This document shows positions 1 to 58,526 of a DNA stretch of 64,000 nt, piece by piece. A program made the position numbers and the translations under genes. The stretch is from positions 6,684,641 through 6,748,640 of the forward strand of contig NC_092705.1 in the NCBI RefSeq assembly GCF_964275005.1, written 5' to 3'. The DNA is from Diadema setosum (lineage: Eukaryota; Echinodermata; Echinoidea; Diadematoida; Diadematidae). The notes beneath the pieces are model-generated. The model made no database searches and had not been told where the DNA came from. It saw only the letters and a list, made by a program, of their open reading frames with translations. Position 1 is the first letter of the stretch. The number at the start of each line of letters is the position of its first letter.

Positions 1-1775
1 ATGGAAAAACTGAAACAAATAAACAAATTACGTGAACAAAAACAGGCAAAAACATTACAACAAAAAATGCAGAAACCATTCAGAAATAGAGACACTTATT
101 ATTCTTTAATGTCACTTCAAGCAAACCTAAACTCCCCCCTCTCCCCGCACACGCTGTCATTTTCAATCTCATCAACCAATAATATTACTCATTGTACTTG
201 CGTAAACTATGTTGATTATGCATGATGGGGAAGAGGAGGGGGGCGCTCGGGGGGGGGGGGGAGAGAAATGAGACCCCCCCCAAAAAAAAAAAAAATAAAA
301 ACTAGAGACGGCATGAATGTGTTGTGTAATTTACATTTTACGGAACAGTGTGTTCATTCGAGCTCAAGTTTTTATGCTCTGTCGATAATGACATAAGTTA
401 TCATTACATCTATAATTAAAAGAAAAAAGAACACCCATACATGGCATTGTAGTTGCAGAATGACACACTGCAAGGGCATCCAAACGAAAAATTATCAGCT
501 AAGCGTATAAAGTTTTATGCACCCCGGCTTCATTAAACAAGCATATTTTCACGCTTCATTTTTTTGATCGATTAATCGAAGTAGATGGTCTCACTCTCAT
601 ATAAACACTGTTTCGAATTCCCGATAGGCGCTTGAACTGCTAATTCTCCACGGTAAACTGTATAGCTTTCTCCTGTCTGACGCCGCCGTTACAGGGAAAG
701 ACGTGAATGATGCACGGAAAATACACAGTCATCAGACATCTCCGCGGGTTCGTATAGTTCTGCAATCGCCAACAACATTAAAACTATGAGACCAACCACG
801 ATGCGATACTGGCAAAAACGCGACTATACGTAACTATACTATCTTAATTTAATGTAAGTGTTGGATCAAATTCAGCTAGAAGGAAGTGAAGTATAATTTG
901 TAAATGAAATCATATTTATCCACTTAAGACGTGACCAAAACATTATTATCTGATCAAAACATTATAAGGATATAAAACATTACAAGCCCATACATGCTGC
1001 CTGACGAGCTGCAACACAATTGATTCGACATCAGATGTATATATTTGTTCTCCACTTTCAAACCTCTGTTCAACTGTACGTTATCAACTTTTGTTTGAAA
1101 GTACAATGTATAATGCTCTCAATCCGCCAGCGAAAACGTCTTGATGCAAGCATAAGACATTGTATACATCGTCTGTGCCTCTTCAAAGAGGCAAAATTCC
1201 TGGTCACCGTGTTCTATGATCACACGAGCTATCAATTACAGTCTAAGCCACAGATGTCTTGGTGTTGCCGATTTGGGGACTGAATAAAAGATTGTATTGA
1301 CGCTCAACGCACGTAAACAAACAAGCATACCCAAATTATAACACTTCCATTCTTGTTTATTTGCTTGTTTGTGTTACCCGTAAGTTTTTCATTGCAGTGT
1401 AGGGTGACTTTGAAGAGTCTTAATGTTATCCACAAATGTAAACACACATCGCTAGGAGTAAAATCCTTTGAAGGAATTGCGACTGACTGTTAAAAAAATT
1501 ACATCATTACCGATCAAGGAACTGGGTAACCACGTTTCTCACGTTAAAAGCAGGAATCTTTTTTCTTACTGTTTAATAATTGACTTTCGTTCTTACCCAA
1601 GCACCGCCCACAATATGCTACATAATATAGAGCATAAATTCTGTTATGTGATTTCTTTTTTTTTTCTAAGACTTGATTCTGTCATTTTCTGATCATTTTG
1701 AACTGAAAAGGAATACCTCAAACAAGCAAACAAACAAACAAACAAACATAAAGCCCACACAAGAAATGCGATGCT
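1..1775. other. Intergenic, no gene recognised
   Basis: AT-rich DNA with homopolymer runs, including a G run at about 249-261 followed by C and A runs. The short open frames show no domain, no codon bias and no usable splice context. A CAAA-type simple repeat lies at about 1,722-1,746. Confidence 0.6.
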
Positions 1776-2165
1776 TTAATAGGATCGTATAGTTTTGGTT
1801 GAGACATAATTTCAAGTTTCTAACAATTTTTTTTTTTTGTGAGATAATGAGAAATCTCTTATGAAACATGAAAGAGCATGTAATTCTATGAGGAATTCAA
1901 CGTTTATTTGATGAAAATTGGTTTTGAAATGGCTGAGATATCCAAAAAAGAGCGATTCTAAATAAGTGTTGGACCCACACTTTATTAATATCGGTTTGTT
2001 TTACTTCGTTTTTGGATGTTTCAGTCATTCCAAACCCGACTTTCATCAAATAAACTTTGAATTCCTCTTAGAATGGTATGCTCTGTATTATATCATAAGT
2101 GTTTTCTTGGTATCTCGTAAAAAGTTAAAAGGCCAATCTCCACCAATACTGTGCCATCCCTTTAA
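1776..2165 (+). mobile_element. Foldback MITE family A, copy 1 (TTAA-flanked)
   Basis: A 390-bp non-coding element bounded by TTAA. The left tip reads AGGATCGTATAGTTTTGG and the right tip is its diverged complement, GCCATCCC before TTAA. The whole element is a long imperfect palindrome: the left arm carries TGAAATGGCTGAGATATCC and the right arm the complement of a relative of it. TTAA target plus AGG tips is typical of T2/Kolobok-type MITEs (family knowledge). The other copies are at 5,389, 18,893, 28,565 and 46,716. Confidence 0.85.
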
Positions 2166-3620
2166 CATACATACTAAGAACACCTAACCCCATTCAGGTT
2201 GAACTGCGAATCATGAGCCATAACAAATTCAAACTGAAGGACTATAAAGATTAATGTATATAATTTTGATTACATGTTGCACAATGATTTCATTAGATTT
2301 ACCAATGTCCAAATTGGCAACGGTCACGAGTCAAAACATTCTGGCTTGTGCAAGTCAACAATGAAACGGAGTCCTAGCTCGAGACTGGTAATCAATAGTA
2401 CTTACGTAGCGGCGCTATTACCTAACCTACTGCGCATGACTCCCCAGCAACACATTTGCACAGAGATCAACTCGTGGCAGAAGTTCAGAGGAAAATTATT
2501 TCATAGCTACCGACGACGGCCGTTTCTTGGCAGAGCAATGTTGTGTTTGAAATTTTTCTCACTAAGCCTATCATATCTTCTCGCTAATTGAGTTCACTGC
2601 CTGGTTTACTAGAGGAAGAGCGTTAGTGATGGCAAGCAATTTGTTCAGTGAAACTTTCATCTGCAAGACGGGCAAGAAGAAATAGTGGATAGAAGTGCCG
2701 TTCATTGCTGAGCTGCGTGCGGCAGATCAGACCTGACAAAAACAGGCAGTCAAAATCTAGAGGTAAGTACTATACCATCCGGCAACGAACCGCTAACTTC
2801 CAACTTCGCCTTTGTATTTACGATGTAAAAGTCCAGTCAGAATAGGCAAACTTTTATGTATCAAACGATATTTTGTTACTGTTATTATAAGCCATCTATT
2901 AGGCCCATTGAAGGCCGACAATAGATATTTTCGAAATAATATACAGGAGTATTAAAGGTTTATATTGCAAATGCCTTGAGCGTGTTGGTTCTTTATTGTG
3001 GGAGTGGGGTGGCTCAATAAGATTTTGTCAGAAAACCTTTTTCGCCCAAGAACAGTTGCGACTATAGTATCGAGAGAAAAAAAAATAGTCAAGCGTTGAT
3101 ACATATGTGATGGCAAATAATTTGAAAGTTTTCGCTATTGATTGCAATTCAGCATGTACATTTTCTAAGGCATCGAGTTACAAAATTATGGGAATATAGC
3201 CATAGGGACGGGACGTTGAAATACTTAGCAGACGACGGATACCTTAAGAAGCGCCACATCTGTTGGATTTTTGTTTACTCGTTTGCTTTACGTGTTTGCC
3301 GTCGAAAAACAAAGACTATTTAGTCCGAGATTCACTTTGAGATAGACCTAATGCTTGCACGTTTTGTCCAGTACGGAGATATTTCCGTATATCGAAGTAA
3401 TAATATTTTAAAACACCGTACATTGACTGCTACTGTGCAACCCCGAAAAAAGATGACATGTTGAAATAATCTGAAGTCTACTATTAGAGTGTAGGTCACT
3501 ACTAGTAGTGCTTAAATTCATTTCGTAACATTTTCTCTTTTGATTTGAGGTCACAGTATTAAAGTCAGGAAGATAAATTAATAAGACAGCGTACACGACG
3601 TGCAATATATATACAGTATA

Positions 3621-3658
<38 letters not shown>

Positions 3659-5388
3659 ACAGAATATGATTATGTTGCCATATAGGATTACTACCTTTAA
3701 CATGGCTATTTATAGTACAGAAGTAAACGTGCTAAACATTCCTTTTTTTTCTTAAAAAAAGTTACCACAATGAAGTCGTGGCTTGCATATAATTGCCAAA
3801 TTTATTAATAAGTTAATGCCTCAGCAGCAAGTGTGAATACGATAATCCTCTCATTACCTAAATCATGCCTTGATTTAGTTCATGAAGAAATTTACTTCTT
3901 CTCTCATTTAACTCTAATTATCATCAAGAGATCTATTTCTTTTTTTGGGGGGGGGGTGTGATAGATAAAAAAAAAATAATATTCCATTTGTACCCCATCA
4001 TGGCATTTGTTGACTGATTGGAGTCGACGGCGGAAAGAATGATTAATGAACAAAATTGCCTCGAGTGGAGACTATTCAACGGACTGAAGGCAGCCATCTT
4101 ATAATTCCGGTTCATGATGAAAGTACACACGCCTGCATGCAGCAGGAATGCGATGGCGTGTGTTAGTCATTAGTCAGATATTTCAATTATCTCGACCGAG
4201 ACGGTGACAACCCTGATTTTGTGCGTAGAGGACAGAGCCAAACAGGCAACACAAAAAGCACGTACAGCCATTATAGCTGCCATTACGTCACTGTATTGGG
4301 CAACTTACCTAACAGCTGAGGTATAGCACTATATACCCAAAGGTTAATACCAACGTACTTATTTTATTCTGATCAAGACTTGTGAAACAGCTAATTAGCA
4401 TTCACGTGACGTCATTAATGCGTGCAGAAAAGCAGTTCTCATAATCACTCAAACTATCTTTGCAATGTAGAGTTATATCGATGTAACACGAACACTTCTC
4501 AAGAAAGGTTAGAAACATTAATTTTCATACAAGGCATTTCAGCAAAACATAATGATTCATGAAATATGGGATAAGCTCCTTTCATTCGTGTTCGCCCCCC
4601 CCCCCCCCATGTTGTGACGCTGATCGAAACTCATTTGACCCATAGACCATGAACGGGAATAACCCTTTTGATGGGGTGCGACTCGATACACTCACGCAGT
4701 AGAAAACACGCGCACATTCAATGTACATGTAACATGTTTTGTTGAAAATTGAGCTCATCGTTTGCTGTAGGTCATTGGATTGTAAGAAAGTTGTTAATTT
4801 TTTTGTTAAGTAGAAGACGTACTGCATGTATTGAGAACTTGAAAAAAAGAACTGAAATACATGTACAGGAATTGTCAAAGGAAAAACTGCTTCCTGCTGA
4901 AAGGAAAGGAAACGAAATGTTGAAGGTTATAGCATCTAGCCTAAACTGATTAACAATTCCAGAAAATCGTAAGAGATTTATATATAACATCACTAGAGGG
5001 GAAACATAATTGTTTCGAATACTCATGTGTTTTGAAGAAGTCCAGCGTGTTTTCCATAGTCTTCGGTAGATATGAATATTGCGCACATTTTTCCCCGAAA
5101 GGAGAAACTCCATCCCCGGGCTCCGTCCCCAAGCTCCGTCCCCGTCTTTTCGCCGGCCGTTTATCTACTCCGTGGAATCAAATATCATAAGAAATTACTG
5201 AGTGCCTCATTAATTGAGTTATATATATATAGGGTGATTAGAATTAGTCGTGGTAGTTTCTTGCAACAGGAGAAATAAATAAAAGATATGGCTTGGTGAG
5301 AGATATGGAGAACTGGAGTCACTACAAGCATTTATGAAGATGCAACCTTTGCAGATAATGTTGCATTAAACAAGTTTCATAATAAAAG
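2166..5388. other. Intergenic, no gene recognised
   Basis: No coding exon or RNA gene could be supported. It contains a (TA)n tract, a C run at about 4,595-4,608 and A/T-rich low-complexity DNA. The frames of about 60-110 codons have no recognisable domains and overlap one another on both strands. Confidence 0.55.
3605..3656. repeat. (TA)n microsatellite
   Basis: Almost pure TA dinucleotides interrupted by CAG and TG variants. Confidence 0.95.
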
Positions 5389-5777
5389 TTAAAGGGATGG
5401 TACAGTATTGGTGGGGATGAGAATTGGGCTTTTAACTTTTGGCGAGATACCAAGAAAACACTTATATGAAATAGTACAGAGCATACCATTTTGAGAGGAA
5501 TTCAACGTATATTTGATGAAAATCGGGTTTGGAATGACTGAAACATCCAAAAACAAAGTAGAACAAGGCGATCGTAATAAAAGGTGGGTCCCACATTTTA
5601 TTAGAATCGCTCTGTTTTGGATATCTCGGCCATTTCAAAACCAATTTTCATCTAATAAACGTTGAATTCCTCATGGAATTACATGCTCTTTCATATTTCA
5701 TAAGGTTTCTCATTATCTCACCAAAAATGTTAGAAACCTGAAATTAGGTCTCAACCAAAACTATACGATCCCTTTAA
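5389..5777 (-). mobile_element. Foldback MITE family A, copy 2 (TTAA-flanked)
   Basis: A 389-bp copy in reverse orientation to copy 1, with both TTAA flanks intact. It starts AAGGGATGGTACAGTATTGG after the TTAA and ends CTATACGATCCC before the second TTAA. The palindrome centre is near TGGGTCCCA. This is the best-preserved copy and a good reference for the family. It has no coding capacity. Confidence 0.88.
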
Positions 5778-9589: not shown

Positions 9590-9631
9590 ATGAGAACGCC
9601 GCGTGGCCAGACTAAACCAGACGGTGATTGA
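9590..9631 (+). promoter_or_regulatory. Possible upstream ORF before the kelch start codon
   Basis: ATG at 9,590 opens 13 codons ending in TGA at 9,629-9,631, 14 bases before the main ATG. If the leader is unspliced and reaches this far it could dampen translation. No transcript start is visible, so this is inference only. Confidence 0.3.
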
Positions 9632-9645
9632 TCACGACCGTCATC

Positions 9646-12600
9646 ATGGCGGAAGGGAGCAGCGAAATAGACGGCGGCAGTATTTGCCCGCCGATCAGCG
9701 ACTTCGAAATGGACATGATGCGCATGGAGCAGATGGCGTGCTTTCTTGAAGAGGAAGGGGACGGGTCGCTGAACCTTTTCTCCGACACGTCAGCAGCGGA
9801 TAGTCTGGATCTTCCCAACCCTTTGAATCGGCTCTACTGGAACGAGCCGCGATACGACCGCAGCCAGGTTCCAAGCATTCTTGTGTCTGGAATTGGAGAC
9901 GACGACAGGTCGGAAAGCAGCAGTCTCTCCCGGGGAGGCGTTTCCAGTATCAGACCGCTCGCTCCGGCTGTCGTGGAGCAGCAGCAAGATGGGGCAGGGA
10001 AGCCACCTGGGGCGCGATCAAAGCTGGAGAGAAGCGAATCTATAGAGAGTCAACCTTCGGGGTTGGCGGAATCTGTCGGGAGTGGCGCCGCCATGGCTAG
10101 ATCTGGGTTTCGTCGTAGCGTATCGTGTGAGAGCTCGTCGTCACTCGGAGGTGAGTCATGGCAGCAAGCACCGATCCTAACAAAATCAAGAGCACTTTAC
10201 ATAAAATGAAAGGACAATCTTATAAGTTGAAGTATTTTTAAAAGAATATGACATTATTGCTCCAGCGACAATTGCACGCTAAGCAAAACATGAATTCTAC
10301 CCACTATTAAACATACCCCTAACCATAATCCTAATCCTCACATCAAACTAAACCTATAACCCTATCACAATCCTAACCCTAAGTCCTTTGAGAAAATAAG
10401 AACGGAGCAATCGTCGCGGAGCAAATGTCTTGTCACCAGAGAGAAAATGATATCAACCGTCAAGTTGACTATTCAAATATGTTGCATCTTTAAAGGTAAA
10501 TCAAAATCAAGAAATAAACGATGCTAGAAAGTAGCTGAAGAGTAACACAGAACATAACAAATAAATTGCGTCTACATCATGTTGCTCCGAGTAATCTGCT
10601 TTGAATTCCCCACAGGTACCCGGGATAATTCTGAAGCCAGCTACAGTAGCTCTCTCCACAGGCACCGGCCTGTCATGCATCCTCACCATGCTCTGGAGCT
10701 CATGGCCGCCCTCAACGACATGCGGCTCGCAGGGGACATGATCGATCTGAAGATTCTCTCTGCCGACCAAAAGTTCCAGTGCCACCGCGCCATCGTAGCC
10801 GCGGGTAGTCCCCTCGTCATGAACCTGCTCGAACAGCAGCACATCAAGCTGCGGAAGAAGAGCGACAAGCTCGTCGTCGACCACATCCGCGCCGACTACG
10901 TCGGCCAGATAATCGAATTCGTGTACACGTCCAAGATGGGTATAGGATACCAGAATGCACAGGATATGCTCACCCTGTGCTTCGGACAGTCAGCCTTCTT
11001 GAACAAGTCCGTGGAGCTGGCTTGCAGCGACTTTCTTGTCGGACAGTTCTGCCTCGATGCGGGTAGCGAGACGTCGTCGCTGAGCGCCGTTCCGTCCTCC
11101 ATCCTCTCGGGGGAAGAGGATACTTCTTCCTGTGGGACGGAATGTAGCTTCAAGGAGCACAACTACCCCCTCGAGGTCCTGCACGTGTTGAATGAACATC
11201 GCCGAAGTCGCCGATTCACCGACCTGATCTTGACCGTCGAGAGCATTTCCTTCCATTGCCACCGTGCGGTCATGATCGCGGTCAGTCCGTATTTCAGGGC
11301 GATGTTCACGTCCGGAATGAAGGAGTTTCGAGAGGAGGAGGTTGAACTCAAGGGTATCCACTCTGATATTTTCAGTATCCTGCTGGATTTCATCTACACG
11401 TGTAGGCTTAATATAAATGAGGACAATGCTCAGGAACTCCTGGAGACCGCCAGCTTCCTGCAGCTCGTTCCAGCTGTGAACGCGTGCAGTCAATTCTTCA
11501 AAGACCAACTGGACATTCATAACTGCCTCGGTATCATCAATTTCGCCAAACTGTACAGCTGCGATCAGCTCTTTGACCGCACATTTATGTTCATACTGAC
11601 TTATTTCAAGGACATCATGCTCACGGAAGACTACCCACACCTTTCCGCAGACGATCTAGCCTCATTCATCGCCGACGATCGCCTCAATGTGAAAAACGAG
11701 GAGGTTGCCTTCGAGGCGGCCATGCAGTGGCTCAAACACGACGTCGACGAAAGGCTACCGTCCATGCCCAAAGTCTTGCGTCACGTCCGGCTGCCGCTGA
11801 TCGAGCCCGATTATGTGGAGCAGTACATCAAAGGCGACCCCGTCCTCCAGGGGGACGCGGCCTGCCAGGCTCTGATCGGAGAGAGCCAGTTGCTGAGGGA
11901 GCGGGGAGCGAGCTCGCATCACGTGGACGATCCGCGTCTGAAGCTCCGCTACTCCATGACCACAGAAGTACTGGTGACTGTCGGTGGGTTCGACGACCGA
12001 CAGAGGTGGGTGCGGGATGTCTGGTGCTTCAACCCAAAGGACAACTCATGGCATTCTCTGGCGCCGTTCCCGGGCAAGAACAGGAGATTCGCCGCCGTAG
12101 CAATGGACAACGATATCTATATCATAGGAGGTCAGGTGCGTTTCCAATAGCATTAAATCTGTCATATTCCTCGTATAAAAATTCAGATCTTTATTGTTCC
12201 TCTAAGCTGTTATTAAGCCTCTCTTTATTTCATTCCTACCCTTCCATGCCTGTGGTCTTTGAATGGCATAATGCGGAACCTACCAGAGTGTCAAAGAGGT
12301 TACAAGACAGAAAGTATCTCTCAATGATTATAGGCTGCTACCCACACCACCAAAAACAGGCATGATAGAGAGGTTGAGAATAGAAATGCCAACAATCCTT
12401 CTTTTGCGACAACCGCGTGATAAGGATTTGGCAAGTGCTGGCCATGCAGTATTGGGGAAAACAGTTTAGTTCATTTCACTTCCACCCTCCTTCATTTAAC
12501 TGCACTACTATACTTGTGACGCTGTGACGGGCACGCCCGACGGTGGCAATGCACGCCGTTGGATACTATTGAGGACGAAAGTAAAACATGACTTCCCAAG

Positions 12601-15231
12601 TAAATCTAGTATGTACATGTCTTGACCTGCTGCTGGTGTAATATTGTCTTTGTGAGAACAGCAGAAGGTTAAGAAAAATGAATAGTGAATTTTAGACATG
12701 AATTGGCACTTCGTGACTTTCACTGCTTTTCTTTGTCGGTTAGTTGTGCACCATAATCACATCACATGCGCAAAGAATCAATGTAATGAATACAACGTGT
12801 ATAGTATTTATACAGATATAGTGAAACAAATTATGCATGCTAAGTCTTTCACTTTGTATGGGCTATAATTTGCATTCTAAAGTCCAAAATGTTTTCACCT
12901 TGTCAATATGTTTAGTATTAGTATGCACTTGTCTATCAATTATATACGTACATGATTATAAACTCAAGTTGTGCATCATTTACATTTTCATAATAATAAA
13001 GATTATTGCCAGGTATACTTTATGATACACTATTCTATCTGATTGTAGTTTATTTTGTCTGGACACTAGGCTGATCATGGCGATCGTATGTCGGAAACCC
13101 TGCCCGACGTCTGGCGATACGACTCCATCACCAACCGCTGGTCGCAGGTCGCCAGCCTCAACATGCCGCGCTTCTCGCATGGCGCCGGGGTCGTCGACGG
13201 CTTCATATACGTGGTCGGCGGCAAGATGGGCTGGGCGCGGCGCTTCAACGACGTCGAGCGCTACGACCCAGCCAAGAACACATGGACGCTCATCACACGC
13301 ATCAAGGGCAGTTACCTTGAGAAGCCAGTTGTGTCGTCTCATGAAGGTATTACATGTTTTTCCTTGTCATGCATACATCCTTTGCCGTAAATCCGCCTCC
13401 AAATTGTCCTGGTACTGTCTCTCCGTTCAAACACGCGAGGTACACAAATCCCAAAACAAAACAAAAATACTGTGGGCTCCATGGAAAATACTGTTTTCCT
13501 AAATTGAACTGTGGTAGTAGACTTTTCCAATATTCGTACCGCATTCCTTATGATGAATATGAATTACAAATATTTACTAGGATCAAATGTAAAACTATTT
13601 TCTCTCAACAAAAAGTCGATGTAGTTGTTTTCCTTTTTACCCAGTGTCGGCGTGTCCAAAATGTGTATTTATTTCTTACGATAACGTGACATTTTTACTC
13701 TCGCCATACTTATGATGATGATACAAAACCGAGAAATGCAAAATACTGAGATAAAGAGCTCTCCCTTTTGTTACTCTCACGCCACCATACATGCGGTACT
13801 CATCCATGCAGGGAAACTGTACGTCAACGGGTATTTCTTTCGGGACCCGGATATCATGCACTGCTATGACCCGGAAGAGAACAAGTGGATTCAGATGTTC
13901 AGCTTTCAGCGCATGCAAGGGGACGGGATCGAGAACGCCGTGGTGGTCGACGACTACGTGTACTACCTCGTCTTCAGGGGGTACGACAACTACGTTGTAG
14001 TCGTCAACCCGGTGACTGGGGAAAAGATTAGAGGTGATTAGAACAGGGGGGAGAGGGGTTCTGTTTTCTCTTTGTTCATTTTGTATAACGGTAAAATATT
14101 TACGGATCCTGTACATTCCATTTTGCGAGCACATACCTAATCTCTGTTGTTGTTTTGTTCTCACCTACATTCGTTCAAGAGGTTTGTTTGTTTGTTTGTT
14201 TGTTTGTTTGTTTGTTTGTTTGTTTTAATCACGGGGTTAAAAGTCCTCAATCAGCCAAGAGGCTGTTTTTTTTTTTCAAGGAGACCGTGAAACAAAACAA
14301 TTGACATAACCAGAACAAATCAAAGATACAGAACGAAACAAAATCGATTAAAAAGTAGAGGTGAAACCAATATCAACAAAGAAACAAAACACATCATAAC
14401 AAAACAAAAAATAAAACTAATAGGAAAAAGGTTTGATGTGAGGTTTGTTTGATATAACCTTAACCACTGTGGGACTGTGATTACCTTTGCCCAATTTTCA
14501 GGATAGCCTCGTCATTTTTGAAATTAGGTTTGAACTGCATTCCCTTGACAATCCTACGATTTGCAATTCTAATAACACATTCTATGAAGAGTAATGTATT
14601 TTAATATTTCAAGTTTTCTTTTACAGTTTTGTTAGGAAATCAAGGATGCCTTCACTTTTTTTCTGCCATTCTTCGAGTTTGCCAATTTTGTTTGAGAAGA
14701 AGCAAACATGTTACATTGTGGATTTCTATGACATTTCACTGTTAAGTAGCTTAGTTCAAAGTTAAATTTATCAGATAGGCCTATATCAAACTGGAAACGC
14801 AATTACACGGATCTCTTGATTTGCCATAAAGTTGGTATGAATTATGTGTGCTGCCACATGACTGGTGACTGTGCAATTGATAAGGTTATGATATACCTTG
14901 GTATAGATGGCAGAAGTATGATAAGTGCTTGAAAGTGCACTGGATTATTTAAAATCGTGACTCTTTAAGTATACTGTCAATACCTTCTGTCCTTTACATA
15001 GAAAACAAGATGATCGACGGAAAGTATCTGTATTCCTACGGCGCAACGGTGGTTGGCGACAAGATTTACATTGCCGGCGGCAGCAAGCTGGATGCCAGTG
15101 TGAACGTGCCCCATCTCTTCTGCTACGACCCCGCCCTCGACTTGTGGAGCGTGGTGGGAATGCTGCCTTCTCCCCTGTGTGAACACGGCTGCGTGACCAT
15201 CGAGAAATACATGCCCCTCAAACACACATAG
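9646..15231 (+). CDS. Tandem-BTB kelch-like (KLHL family) protein
   Basis: Five exons join in frame: 9,646-10,150, 10,616-12,135, 13,070-13,346, 13,812-14,033 and 15,002-15,231. All have GT/AG introns, giving 2,754 nt and 917 residues. ATG at 9,646 (ATCATGGCG) is chosen; the frame continues upstream only from a TTG. Residues 1-200 are Ser-rich and low complexity. BTB 1 is at about 205-310 and BTB 2 at about 365-465. BTB 2 carries the SPYFRAMF signature and an MKE motif matching the phi-x-E used for Cullin-3 contact in KLHL proteins. BACK follows at about 470-590, with kelch repeats from about 616 to the end (FDDRQRWVRDVWCFNP, FNDVERYDPAKNTW, IMHCYDPEENKW, HLFCYDPALDLW). Known family role: CUL3 E3-ligase substrate adaptor in the cytoplasm. 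Two BTBs before BACK is unusual, since most KLHL proteins have one. Both BTBs and BACK lie in a single 1.5-kb exon. The substrate is unknown and I do not assign an orthologue. Confidence 0.9.
10313..10386. repeat. Degenerate telomere-like CCTAAC repeat in intron 1
   Basis: Imperfect CCCTAA/CCTAAC units (CCCCTAACC, CCTAATCCT, ATCCTAACCCTAAG) over about 75 bp of kelch intron 1 (10,151-10,615). No other feature was recognised in that intron. Confidence 0.6.
12136..13069. other. Kelch intron 2, no repeat recognised
   Basis: GT at 12,136 and AG at 13,068-13,069 with an in-frame stop soon after the donor. The 934 bp hold no recognised mobile element. Introns 3 (13,347-13,811) and 4 (14,034-15,001) are similar apart from a TTTG microsatellite in intron 4. 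Confidence 0.7.
14180..14225. repeat. (TTTG)n microsatellite
   Basis: About ten head-to-tail TTTG units in kelch intron 4. Confidence 0.93.
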
Positions 15232-55177: not shown

Positions 55178-58100
55178 TCACGCGTGCGAGTTGGTGGAGA
55201 AGCTGAAGCAGGCAGAGGAATTCAGCCCGGAGGTGTCAAAGGTCGTCGTGGGGGAGAAGGAGGACGCGGCGGCGGCGGCGGCGGCGGCAAACGAGGAAGG
55301 CTGGGTAGCAACGATGCGCTGGGGTGGGCTTGTTTCATCCGAACTCATACTCGACATGCTGAATAGAGAGAAGAAGAAAAGAAGACAAGATGCAATGGTT
55401 ACAACACCATTATAAAGCTCACAAAATGTCACATTTGACAGGTAAATACTGTCTGATTTGCCATATACTCAACAAATCTAATTTTCGCAAATCAGGACTT
55501 CTCAGCAATTTTGCGAGTCGTCGAATTCGCAATCGTGGAGTACAGTATAAAGGGAGAAGTGTACATGTGCATGTCACATTCATGTCAAAGTCAGAGCTAA
55601 TAATTTCGCGTGTGGTTTAATTCCCGAATAGTAACGGACTCGCAAAATTTGTGTGAACAAAAACCTCACAAAATATACGGCAAATACAGTAGTTTCTTTT
55701 TATTCAATCTTTGTTTAAACAGTTTATATATTAAAGAGAATGCTTGAAACATTCTCAACAAAATCAGTGGACGATCACATCAAAATAGATCTGATTAGGT
55801 AATACTTGAGGAATCTAACGAATCAAAATCGTCCAGATTGAAAGGCTCTCTAGAATGCACATGTCAGTAATCACAAGGTTGTTGCAGAGCAACATTTGTT
55901 TCTGACAACCAGATTGCACTGCCCCCCCAAGGAAAAACGCAGTATCTAACATTTTTGGCGATTTTCACTTTTTTGCATAAATATAGTCAGTGGGCAATCC
56001 TTCTTCATATGACATATTCAGATTTTTGAAAAAATGTTTAGAAAGCCACTTTTCCGTAACTGCCAAACGCAGTATCTACACTCAACTTGCACTTTCCCCA
56101 AGGAAAAACGCAGTATCTACATGTTGAATATTTCCCCAAGGAAAAACGCAGTATCTACAAAGCTAGTCTTAATTACCAGACACTGTTATTTATATATGTG
56201 AATACTTTGCCGGTTGTTCTGTAATTTGAACGTAAATTACTTTCTTTAGATATACTTGCTAAATAATAAGACATAATGTTCAAAATATCTAACCGAAACA
56301 ATACTGATTAGTAAATATTTTGATGAGATCGTGATCCTAATATAAAACACAGTGTGTGATTAAGACTAACCGAGTGCACATTAAACAATACAACACAACA
56401 CTGACAGCTTGCAGCTATCTACTGCACTGATGCTGTGCATCAGTCAGCACAGGGCTGGGCCCGGCTAGTCAGCATACAGTGGGAGTGTGTACTTGGAATA
56501 AAACAAAATGTTGTCGTGGGGAAAATTACTCGTGAGCCTAGCCCTCAAGAAAAATTTATCTGCAGATAAGGAGTAAGTTATTCAAAACTATTTCAATATT
56601 GAAAGAATAAAGCTGATTGTTTCTCACACGAAGCGAAGTAAACACAATGCATGTTTGTCACACAAAGCGAGGTAAACACAAATGCATACATTTGTGTTTA
56701 CTTCGCTTCGTGTGATAAACGATCAGCTTTATTCTTTCATATTCTACCTCAATGATGAACATTATCCGTACTATAACTTGTTGTGAAGTAACTTTGTTAG
56801 GCCTAGACCGTTGTCAAAATTCCTCAGGCTCCAAATCCGAAAGTTTCTTCGAAAGGCAATAGATCTATTTGTGTTGTATCGGATAAACGTCAGGTTATGT
56901 AACATGTTACACCCTCCCTTAGATCTAAGTCTAAGTCTTTTAGTTTTAGACTTGTCTAGACAGTACGCTATGCCTAACGTTTGAGTCTTGCGTCTCTTTT
57001 CTAATGTTAGACTTAACGTTAATCAGAACTTTCAGGGTCCGTATTCCGAAAGTCTAAAGAAAGATCTAACAAGTGTAGGACTTGAATAGGCCTACTCTAG
57101 GGCAGGCCTGTAGTAAGAAGTCTAAAACTTAACCACTTTTTAGAATCCTAAGTCTAGTGAAGTGTCAATGTTCAATTATCTACTCCATACCATACTTATG
57201 TCTTAAAATTACAGAGTTGACAATACTATAGATTAGGGTCCATGGGAAAAATAGGTACCCACGGTAAATAGACAAAATAGAGAAAGTTAAGAATAAGTTG
57301 TATTTTAATTCTTATCGGATCTAGACAGTGTCTAGACCCTAACCGGTTAGTGAGACTGGGTTGCGTAAAATGCATGCATGATCCCATGCTGCATACATAA
57401 CTTACAAGTAAAAAAAGTTACATTACAAATTTACATGACGTTAAACTTAGGTTCAATCTAGAAGGAATAGGCCTAGAGAGCGGATGTCACTTCATTCTAG
57501 ACCGGTTCTAGATGTATTTTTTTTTTCTAATCAAAGAGTCCTGGCTCGTGTAGGGCGTAAACCTTCTGCAGTTCTATTAACGTTAGGCTATTTTTTTTTT
57601 CTGTGAGCATCGTGCATGTATAGCCTGAGGCGGTAGACTCGTGTAGCCTGCTACATAGCCAGCCTAGAATAAACGATATAAAAACTAGACCTAGTCTAGA
57701 TCGATCTAGGTCCAGACATCCGATTTAGATTTATTTTGGTCTAGACAGACTGTAACCTAGACTGTACAGATCTAGATCTAGTATTCTAGATGCTAGTTAG
57801 CGGCTAGGCCATGTAGCATCACATTACCGCCCTGGCAAGCTTCATATTAAACACGTATCGACGTAACGTTAGGCCTACAGCAAGATCGGTCTGGGATACA
57901 CTTTTAAGCAAAACGTTCCAAGAACGATCTGTTATTTAATAATCTTATGAAGCCTACAGGGCATAAGGGGGGGGGGGGGGGGGGGAGGGGGGATGGAGGA
58001 TGCATCCCCCAGGGCCAGAGAATACTTGAACAATGATGTATACATGCATACATAATTATGGCAGAAGATTAATCCTAGTCATTCCGCTGTAGATACTGCG

Positions 58101-58526
58101 TTTTTCCTTGGGGAAATTCGTTCCATTGTAGATACTGCGTTTTTCCTTGGGGAAATCAGTCAATTGCGTGGGGTTTCCCCAAAGTATCTACATTTTCATC
58201 AATAACTGAAAAACAAAACAAAAACACAAAATGATATCTTCCAGGAAAATTGGTAGCTAGATAGACTAAAGTTCCACAATGAAGGAATTTTTCAAAACAG
58301 TATATTTTCCAGGGGCTTTGGCAAAAAGATAAAATGGTGAATATCTCGGTTGTTTAGAAATGGAGCTGGATGTAGATACTGCGTTTTTCCTTGGGGGGGG
58401 CAGTGCAGTCCTGTCTGATGGTGCATCAACCACTGCATGTACACCAAATCCAAAGTATCAAAAGCAGCGAGAATATAACAGGTAGATGAAACAGCTTATC
58501 ACTAGGTCCAAGAATACTACATTTAA

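Follow-up and report, generated by a model that had tools for sequence, protein, structure and literature searches.

The analysed window, a 64,000-nucleotide stretch of the Diadema setosum genome (bases 6684641-6748640 of contig C22, in an assembly of 912.7 Mb and 102 contigs), contains an interval in which one short motif recurs in two clusters of opposite orientation, and the locus raises the question of whether this arrangement marks the ends of a mobile element and, if so, where that element begins and ends, how it might be moved and to which group of transposons it belongs. An initial annotation, made from the letters of the window, placed a possible non-autonomous DNA transposon at 55916..58406 and reported no target duplication. 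Comparison with other copies in the same genome demonstrates that the interval does hold an element, the limits of which are corrected to 55919-58403 by the target duplication. With + orientation defined by the four-motif array standing on the left, and with A and B denoting two longer relatives on contig C3 that are discussed below, its features are as follows.

55915..55918, no strand: left target-site duplication TGCA, from flank comparison
55919..58403, + strand: whole element, 2485 bp; ends common to 20 fetched copies, A and B, and fixed by target duplications
55919..55948, + strand: left terminal inverted repeat, CTG-C7-AAGGAAAAACGCAGTATCTA, containing motif copy 1
56061..56078, + strand: left motif copy 2, degenerate, with 3 mismatches; core also in A and B
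56102..56119, + strand: left motif copy 3, exact match
56140..56157, + strand: left motif copy 4, exact match
56508..56576, + strand: possible relic first exon of 22 codons with a GTAAGT-like donor at its end; recognised by eye and speculative
56600..56739, no strand: near-perfect hairpin inside the element, with two 48-nt arms that are 96% complementary
58090..58107, - strand: right inner motif copy, exact match
58129..58146, - strand: right middle motif copy, exact match
58177..58192, + strand: partial motif copy CCCCAAAGTATCTACA, in opposite orientation to the other right copies
58373..58403, - strand: right terminal inverted repeat, containing the outermost right motif copy
58404..58407, no strand: right target-site duplication TGCA, from flank comparison

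The terminal inverted repeats share a 27-nt perfect inverted match (55922-55948 with 58373-58399), and the true tips of the element are CTGCCCCCCC...GGGGGGGGCAG. The 'GCA' initially assigned to the tips belongs to the 4-bp target duplication, TGCA, which is present on both sides. Being a palindrome, this duplication blends into the tips and gives the appearance of TGCACTG...CAGTGCA, and for that reason it was overlooked when the window was first annotated.

Six exact copies of the 18-mer GGAAAAACGCAGTATCTA are found in the element, at 55931, 56102 and 56140 on the + strand and at 58090, 58129 and 58373 on the - strand, while 100 shuffles of the window yielded 0.05 matches on average. The original description of six full and two partial copies in opposite orientations holds for all except the partial copy at 58177, which runs against its right-hand neighbours, and the inner pairs are indeed matched in spacing (38 bp vs 39 bp). 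On the left, 171 bp separate the outer copy from the inner pair, as against 244 bp on the right, and the arrays are not mirror images. Within the genome as a whole, the 24-mer CCCCAAGGAAAAACGCAGTATCTA occurs 994 times and its reversed control 0 times, which puts the arrangement far outside what chance would give. The motif pattern AAAACGCAGTATCTACASD, which is absent from the 23 loci compared below, has 11 matches genome-wide, six of which lie, by position, near listed family ends or probe matches (in one case at a distance of 4.5 kb from the end). Two of the remaining five were read and both belong to the family, one (L073) being a mutated right array and the other (L072) a left end whose interior runs into another common repeat; the other three are on C10, C19 and C24.

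That the interval is multi-copy, and not a single-copy sequence, is evident from a search with a left-end query of 501 bases including flank, in which all 40 scored places (of 460 candidates) match, and all 39 non-self matches start at query base 116-124, corresponding to the first bases of the element. The 20 copies fetched for comparison, which rank directly below the window itself in the left-end match list, have both ends in common and are mostly ~2.5 kb in length; deletion variants measure 2.25 kb, and a single insertion variant measures 2.73 kb. Genome-wide, the 32-mer of the left end has 143 exact matches and the 31-mer of the right end 142, with none for the reversed controls. Among 100 left ends listed, 84 are faced by a listed right end within 30 kb, so that the two ends do co-occur at other loci, and 67 of these 84 listed pairs are spaced 2.0-3.0 kb apart; listed left and right ends within 3 kb of one another in any non-facing arrangement number 0. 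The 16 of 100 listed left ends that are unpaired may be accounted for by mutation, as a mutated partner would escape exact matching.

A 4-bp target duplication is present in 23/23 loci (the 20 fetched copies, the window, A and B), while a cross-pair control, in which left and right flanks were taken from different loci, gave 4-bp identity in 6/506 combinations. The duplications vary in sequence (e.g., TGGA, TAAT, TCCT and ACCA), and duplications of differing sequence make the element boundaries exact. Of 46 ends, 42 carry CTG/CAG tips, and the other four end in the C/G tract: two right ends (L015 and L017) and two left ends (L021 and L024) have no CTG/CAG and a longer C or G tract, with the duplication intact. 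Such tipless ends would result either from cleavage within the C/G tract or from loss of the tip before insertion.

Coding capacity was sought both in the window copy and in its longer relatives. The six frames of the window copy contain no Pfam match above cut-off, and the copy has no Rfam match at the gathering threshold; its longest stop-to-stop frame is 83 aa, and the best sub-threshold Pfam match, Sulfotransfer_5 (E 0.006, 16.5 bits vs a cut-off of 23.2), is taken as chance. Among the 84 listed pairs, 16 exceed 3 kb. The longer relative with a transposase, proposed earlier as a confirmation, was not found among the long pairs read, a reading that covered A and B in full and ten further pairs in part; the remaining pairs, of 3.2, 18.5, 24.8 and 26.5 kb, lay outside it. 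An autonomous copy sharing these ends may lie in the unread parts or be absent from the sequenced individual, and pairs over ~15 kb may each represent two different elements.

Both A (11.9 kb) and B (14.8 kb) were considered as candidate autonomous relatives and rejected: the ends of each match those of the short element, and the interior of each holds nested foreign repeats. The interiors of A and B do not match each other as interiors. In A (C3:12152300-12164600, read as L037 and L038) a nested repeat, here called T1, occupies ~1171-5464 and is followed by a second foreign stretch that extends to 10669, while the interior of B begins at another repeat, with six loci starting at B 1202-1205. 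T1 is itself bounded by inverted ends (AGGCCATGGGGTGA on the left and its complement on the right) and a 5-bp duplication, AACAT; in a search with its left end, 39 non-self matches start at query 103-112, the best 40 places are 97-100% identical, and an 80% palindrome of ~600 bp lies near that end. B sits inside a relative of T1, and an approximate empty site for B is provided by 11 of 12 T1 loci (that of A included), in which both B flanks lie close together without the 14.8 kb; the site is not exact, with ~20 extra or changed bases between the flanks in the T1 loci inspected. No transposase above the Pfam cut-off was found in the six frames of L038, L039 and L040 or in the + frames of L037; the sub-threshold matches in L037-L040 were Flavi_M (E 0.069), a VCA0040-like match (0.087), Phage_int_SAM_4 (0.064) and DUF6127 (0.37).

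Samples from the other long pairs gave a mixed picture. One (L062) is foreign sequence up to consensus base 577 and another (L063) is element sequence; among eight 351-bp pieces, element sequence was found in L065, L066, L069 and L070, and foreign, mutually unlike sequence in L064, L067, L068 and L071. One observation counts against the reading of these interiors as foreign repeats, namely that L068 is 94% identical to the insert of an old copy, L061 (L061:233-575). Since the place of the shared stretch differs between the two elements (~1.2 kb in from the left end in the first, close to consensus base 2385 in the second), it is read as one unrelated common repeat inserted twice.

The age of the family and the conservation of its ends were assessed by alignment. 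When 21 aligned short copies are compared with their majority consensus, mean divergence is 1.0% (range 0.6-1.9%), a value that describes the youngest layer and is biased to young copies because the copies were chosen as best hits. Older layers exist as well, with interior divergence of 8.3% in B and 14.0% in L061. In these two diverged copies, differences from the young consensus are 3-4 times fewer in the terminal regions (the first 260 and last ~350 consensus bases) than in the interior: 14/578 vs 152/1832 in B (p 8e-8) and 18/551 vs 239/1707 in L061 (p 2e-14), in a comparison biased by the fact that both copies were found via exact motif matches. Compared with the other terminal positions, motif columns show no significant extra conservation (p 0.15 and 0.10); the young copy A shows no significant conservation difference (p 0.70 and 0.25). 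Conserved ends are what would be expected if only intact-ended copies move, and they fit ends that act in cis.

The interval 55919-58403 is present in many dispersed copies with facing ends and 4-bp duplications; divergence is low among the best hits, terminal regions are better conserved than the interior in the two diverged copies compared, and no coding capacity is recognised. We regard the interval with high confidence as a single member of a young family of non-autonomous, cut-and-paste DNA transposons. The number of copies, their facing ends, the duplications in 23/23 loci and the lack of any domain above cut-off support the initial suggestion of a non-autonomous DNA transposon carrying subterminal arrays; the accompanying suggestion that transposase binds the arrays is one that we infer by analogy with Spm, in which the TNPA protein recognises subterminal repeats and deletion derivatives are mobilised in trans (PMC2613891). 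Mobilisation of the present family would likewise be in trans, and probably by cut-and-paste rather than by another DDE-type route. A transposase encoded at another genomic locus, whether still active or only until recently, would bind the copies of the motif in both subterminal arrays, bring the element ends together and cut at the CTG/CAG tips; the element would then be inserted into staggered cuts 4 bp apart, and the filling of these by repair would generate the 4-bp target duplication. That the family is so young, its copies near-identical and their ends intact, points to a functional transposase in this lineage, either at present or in the very recent past, and such a transposase, if found, would reveal both the superfamily and whether the array is a binding platform.

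Which superfamily this might be can be approached through the tips and the duplication. CMC elements in general have CAC...GTG termini, and the tips of the present element would exclude CMC. The hAT elements produce 8-bp duplications, those of Academ are 3-4 bp and those of Sola1 and Sola2 are 4 bp, Academ and Sola being alike with this family in duplication length. Chapaev elements have invariable 5'-CAC...GTG-3' termini and 3-4 bp duplications (PMC4079192); the latter resemble the 4 bp seen here, but 42 of the 46 ends are CTG/CAG with four in the C/G tract, 'CAC' appearing solely at loci, the window among them, whose duplication has CA as its last two bases, and Chapaev is rejected. Ginger elements share 4-bp duplications with this family and have TGTNR tips, with Ginger1 targeting CCGG or CCGT/ACGG (PMC2836005); such tips, and the Ginger1 target, are absent from the loci compared, and both Ginger1 and Ginger2 are rejected. 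The TNT...AYA or TGT...ACA termini of IS481EU (PMC10045372) do not occur at the loci compared, the TTAA target duplication of piggyBac (PMC7351741), the termini of which are CC..GG (PMC10045372), was found in 0/23 loci, and the 8-bp duplication of Merlin (PMC10045372) and other families of that kind differs from the 4 bp present in 23/23. IS256/MuDR elements, with duplications of 4-10 bp, and PHIS elements, with none or 1-4 bp (PMC10045372), are compatible with the family by duplication length alone. CACTA (En/Spm) deletion derivatives such as dSpm and soybean Tgm elements are alike in that derivatives kept movable by cis-acting ends are moved in trans, yet they differ in having CACTA tips in place of CTG...CAG and, in the case of Tgmt*, a 3-bp duplication (PMC2613891) as opposed to 4 bp; no tnpA- or tnpD-like gene was found here. 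A literature search on the motif core, the tip and transposons returned one paper, on fly neuroblasts, and says little, and the family may already be named in Repbase or Dfam.

These comparisons bear on two ways in which the non-autonomous transposon reading may be refined. The family probably belongs to an already described superfamily, of Academ, Sola, MuDR or PHIS type, and is possibly catalogued in Repbase or Dfam: terminal inverted repeats, subterminal arrays and a short duplication of constant length are ordinary cut-and-paste anatomy, and the lengths reported for MuDR and PHIS are compatible (PMC10045372), although no transposase has been linked to the ends and the signatures of Chapaev, Ginger, IS481EU and piggyBac fail. 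That it represents a group of DNA transposons still undescribed, distinguished by CTG...CAG tips, a C tract at the termini and duplications of 4 bp, is unlikely; no superfamily checked by signature fits both tips and duplication, but signatures were checked for a minority of superfamilies and an absent match is weak evidence. A more specific form of this idea, which we would call a long shot, is that of an undescribed superfamily whose transposase recognises the motif arrays, cuts beside a C tract of variable length, the CTG tip being only loosely fixed, generates 4-bp duplications at targets of no evident set sequence and moves mainly to new sites on its chromosome of origin. That the element encodes a transposase too unusual for Pfam to detect is highly improbable; a TATA-like string in 21/23 loci and the possible 22-codon exon with its GTAAGT donor, exact (with two bases left free) in 10/23 loci, speak in its favour, but the longest frame is the 83-aa one and six read-through frames gave nothing above the Pfam cut-off.

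The chromosomal distribution of the family is relevant to a reading outside transposition altogether. Among the exact left ends listed, 97 lie on C1-C13, with 30 on C3, 19 on C6, 13 on C12 and 12 on C10 as compared with one each on C1 and C5, an uneven spread by chi-square (p 6e-19 with six contig sizes interpolated; p 5e-8 on seven contigs of known size). Clustering of this kind could be taken to mean that the arrays have a regulatory role or form something like a satellite, or that the copies are segmental duplications, but matches stop at the tips in all of the non-self places scored and the 4-bp duplications are made of each locus's own flank in 23/23 loci, which contradicts such a reading and leaves it exceedingly improbable. 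For a transposon family, local transposition is the simplest reading of the concentration, and mostly intrachromosomal hopping would account for the accumulation on C3, C6, C10 and C12; concentration through selection, duplication or assembly effects is possible. The best 40 places of the comparison repeat T1, which are its top matches and not a complete tally, are less concentrated, with 5 on C3, 4 on C20 and at most 3 on each other contig. With copies so unequally shared among chromosomes, a single assembly would suffice to examine local transposition.

Several minor observations accompany these results. The hairpin within the element is predicted to fold strongly (56590-56750: -79.8 kcal/mol, z -16) and, as the old copy L061 is without it, may represent a foldback element that inserted here and has spread with the family. 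A pair of the same ends only 0.6 kb apart, at C3:42210256-42210878, is perhaps a miniature derivative. Tandem TACCATGGTA-like arrays adjoin T1, and the foreign piece L064 (C6:42682270-42682620), nested in an 8-kb pair, contains an open frame that by eye resembles the C-terminal part of a LINE ORF1. Elsewhere in the window, at ~9628-13499, frames are found that resemble, again by eye, a gene for a BTB-kelch protein.
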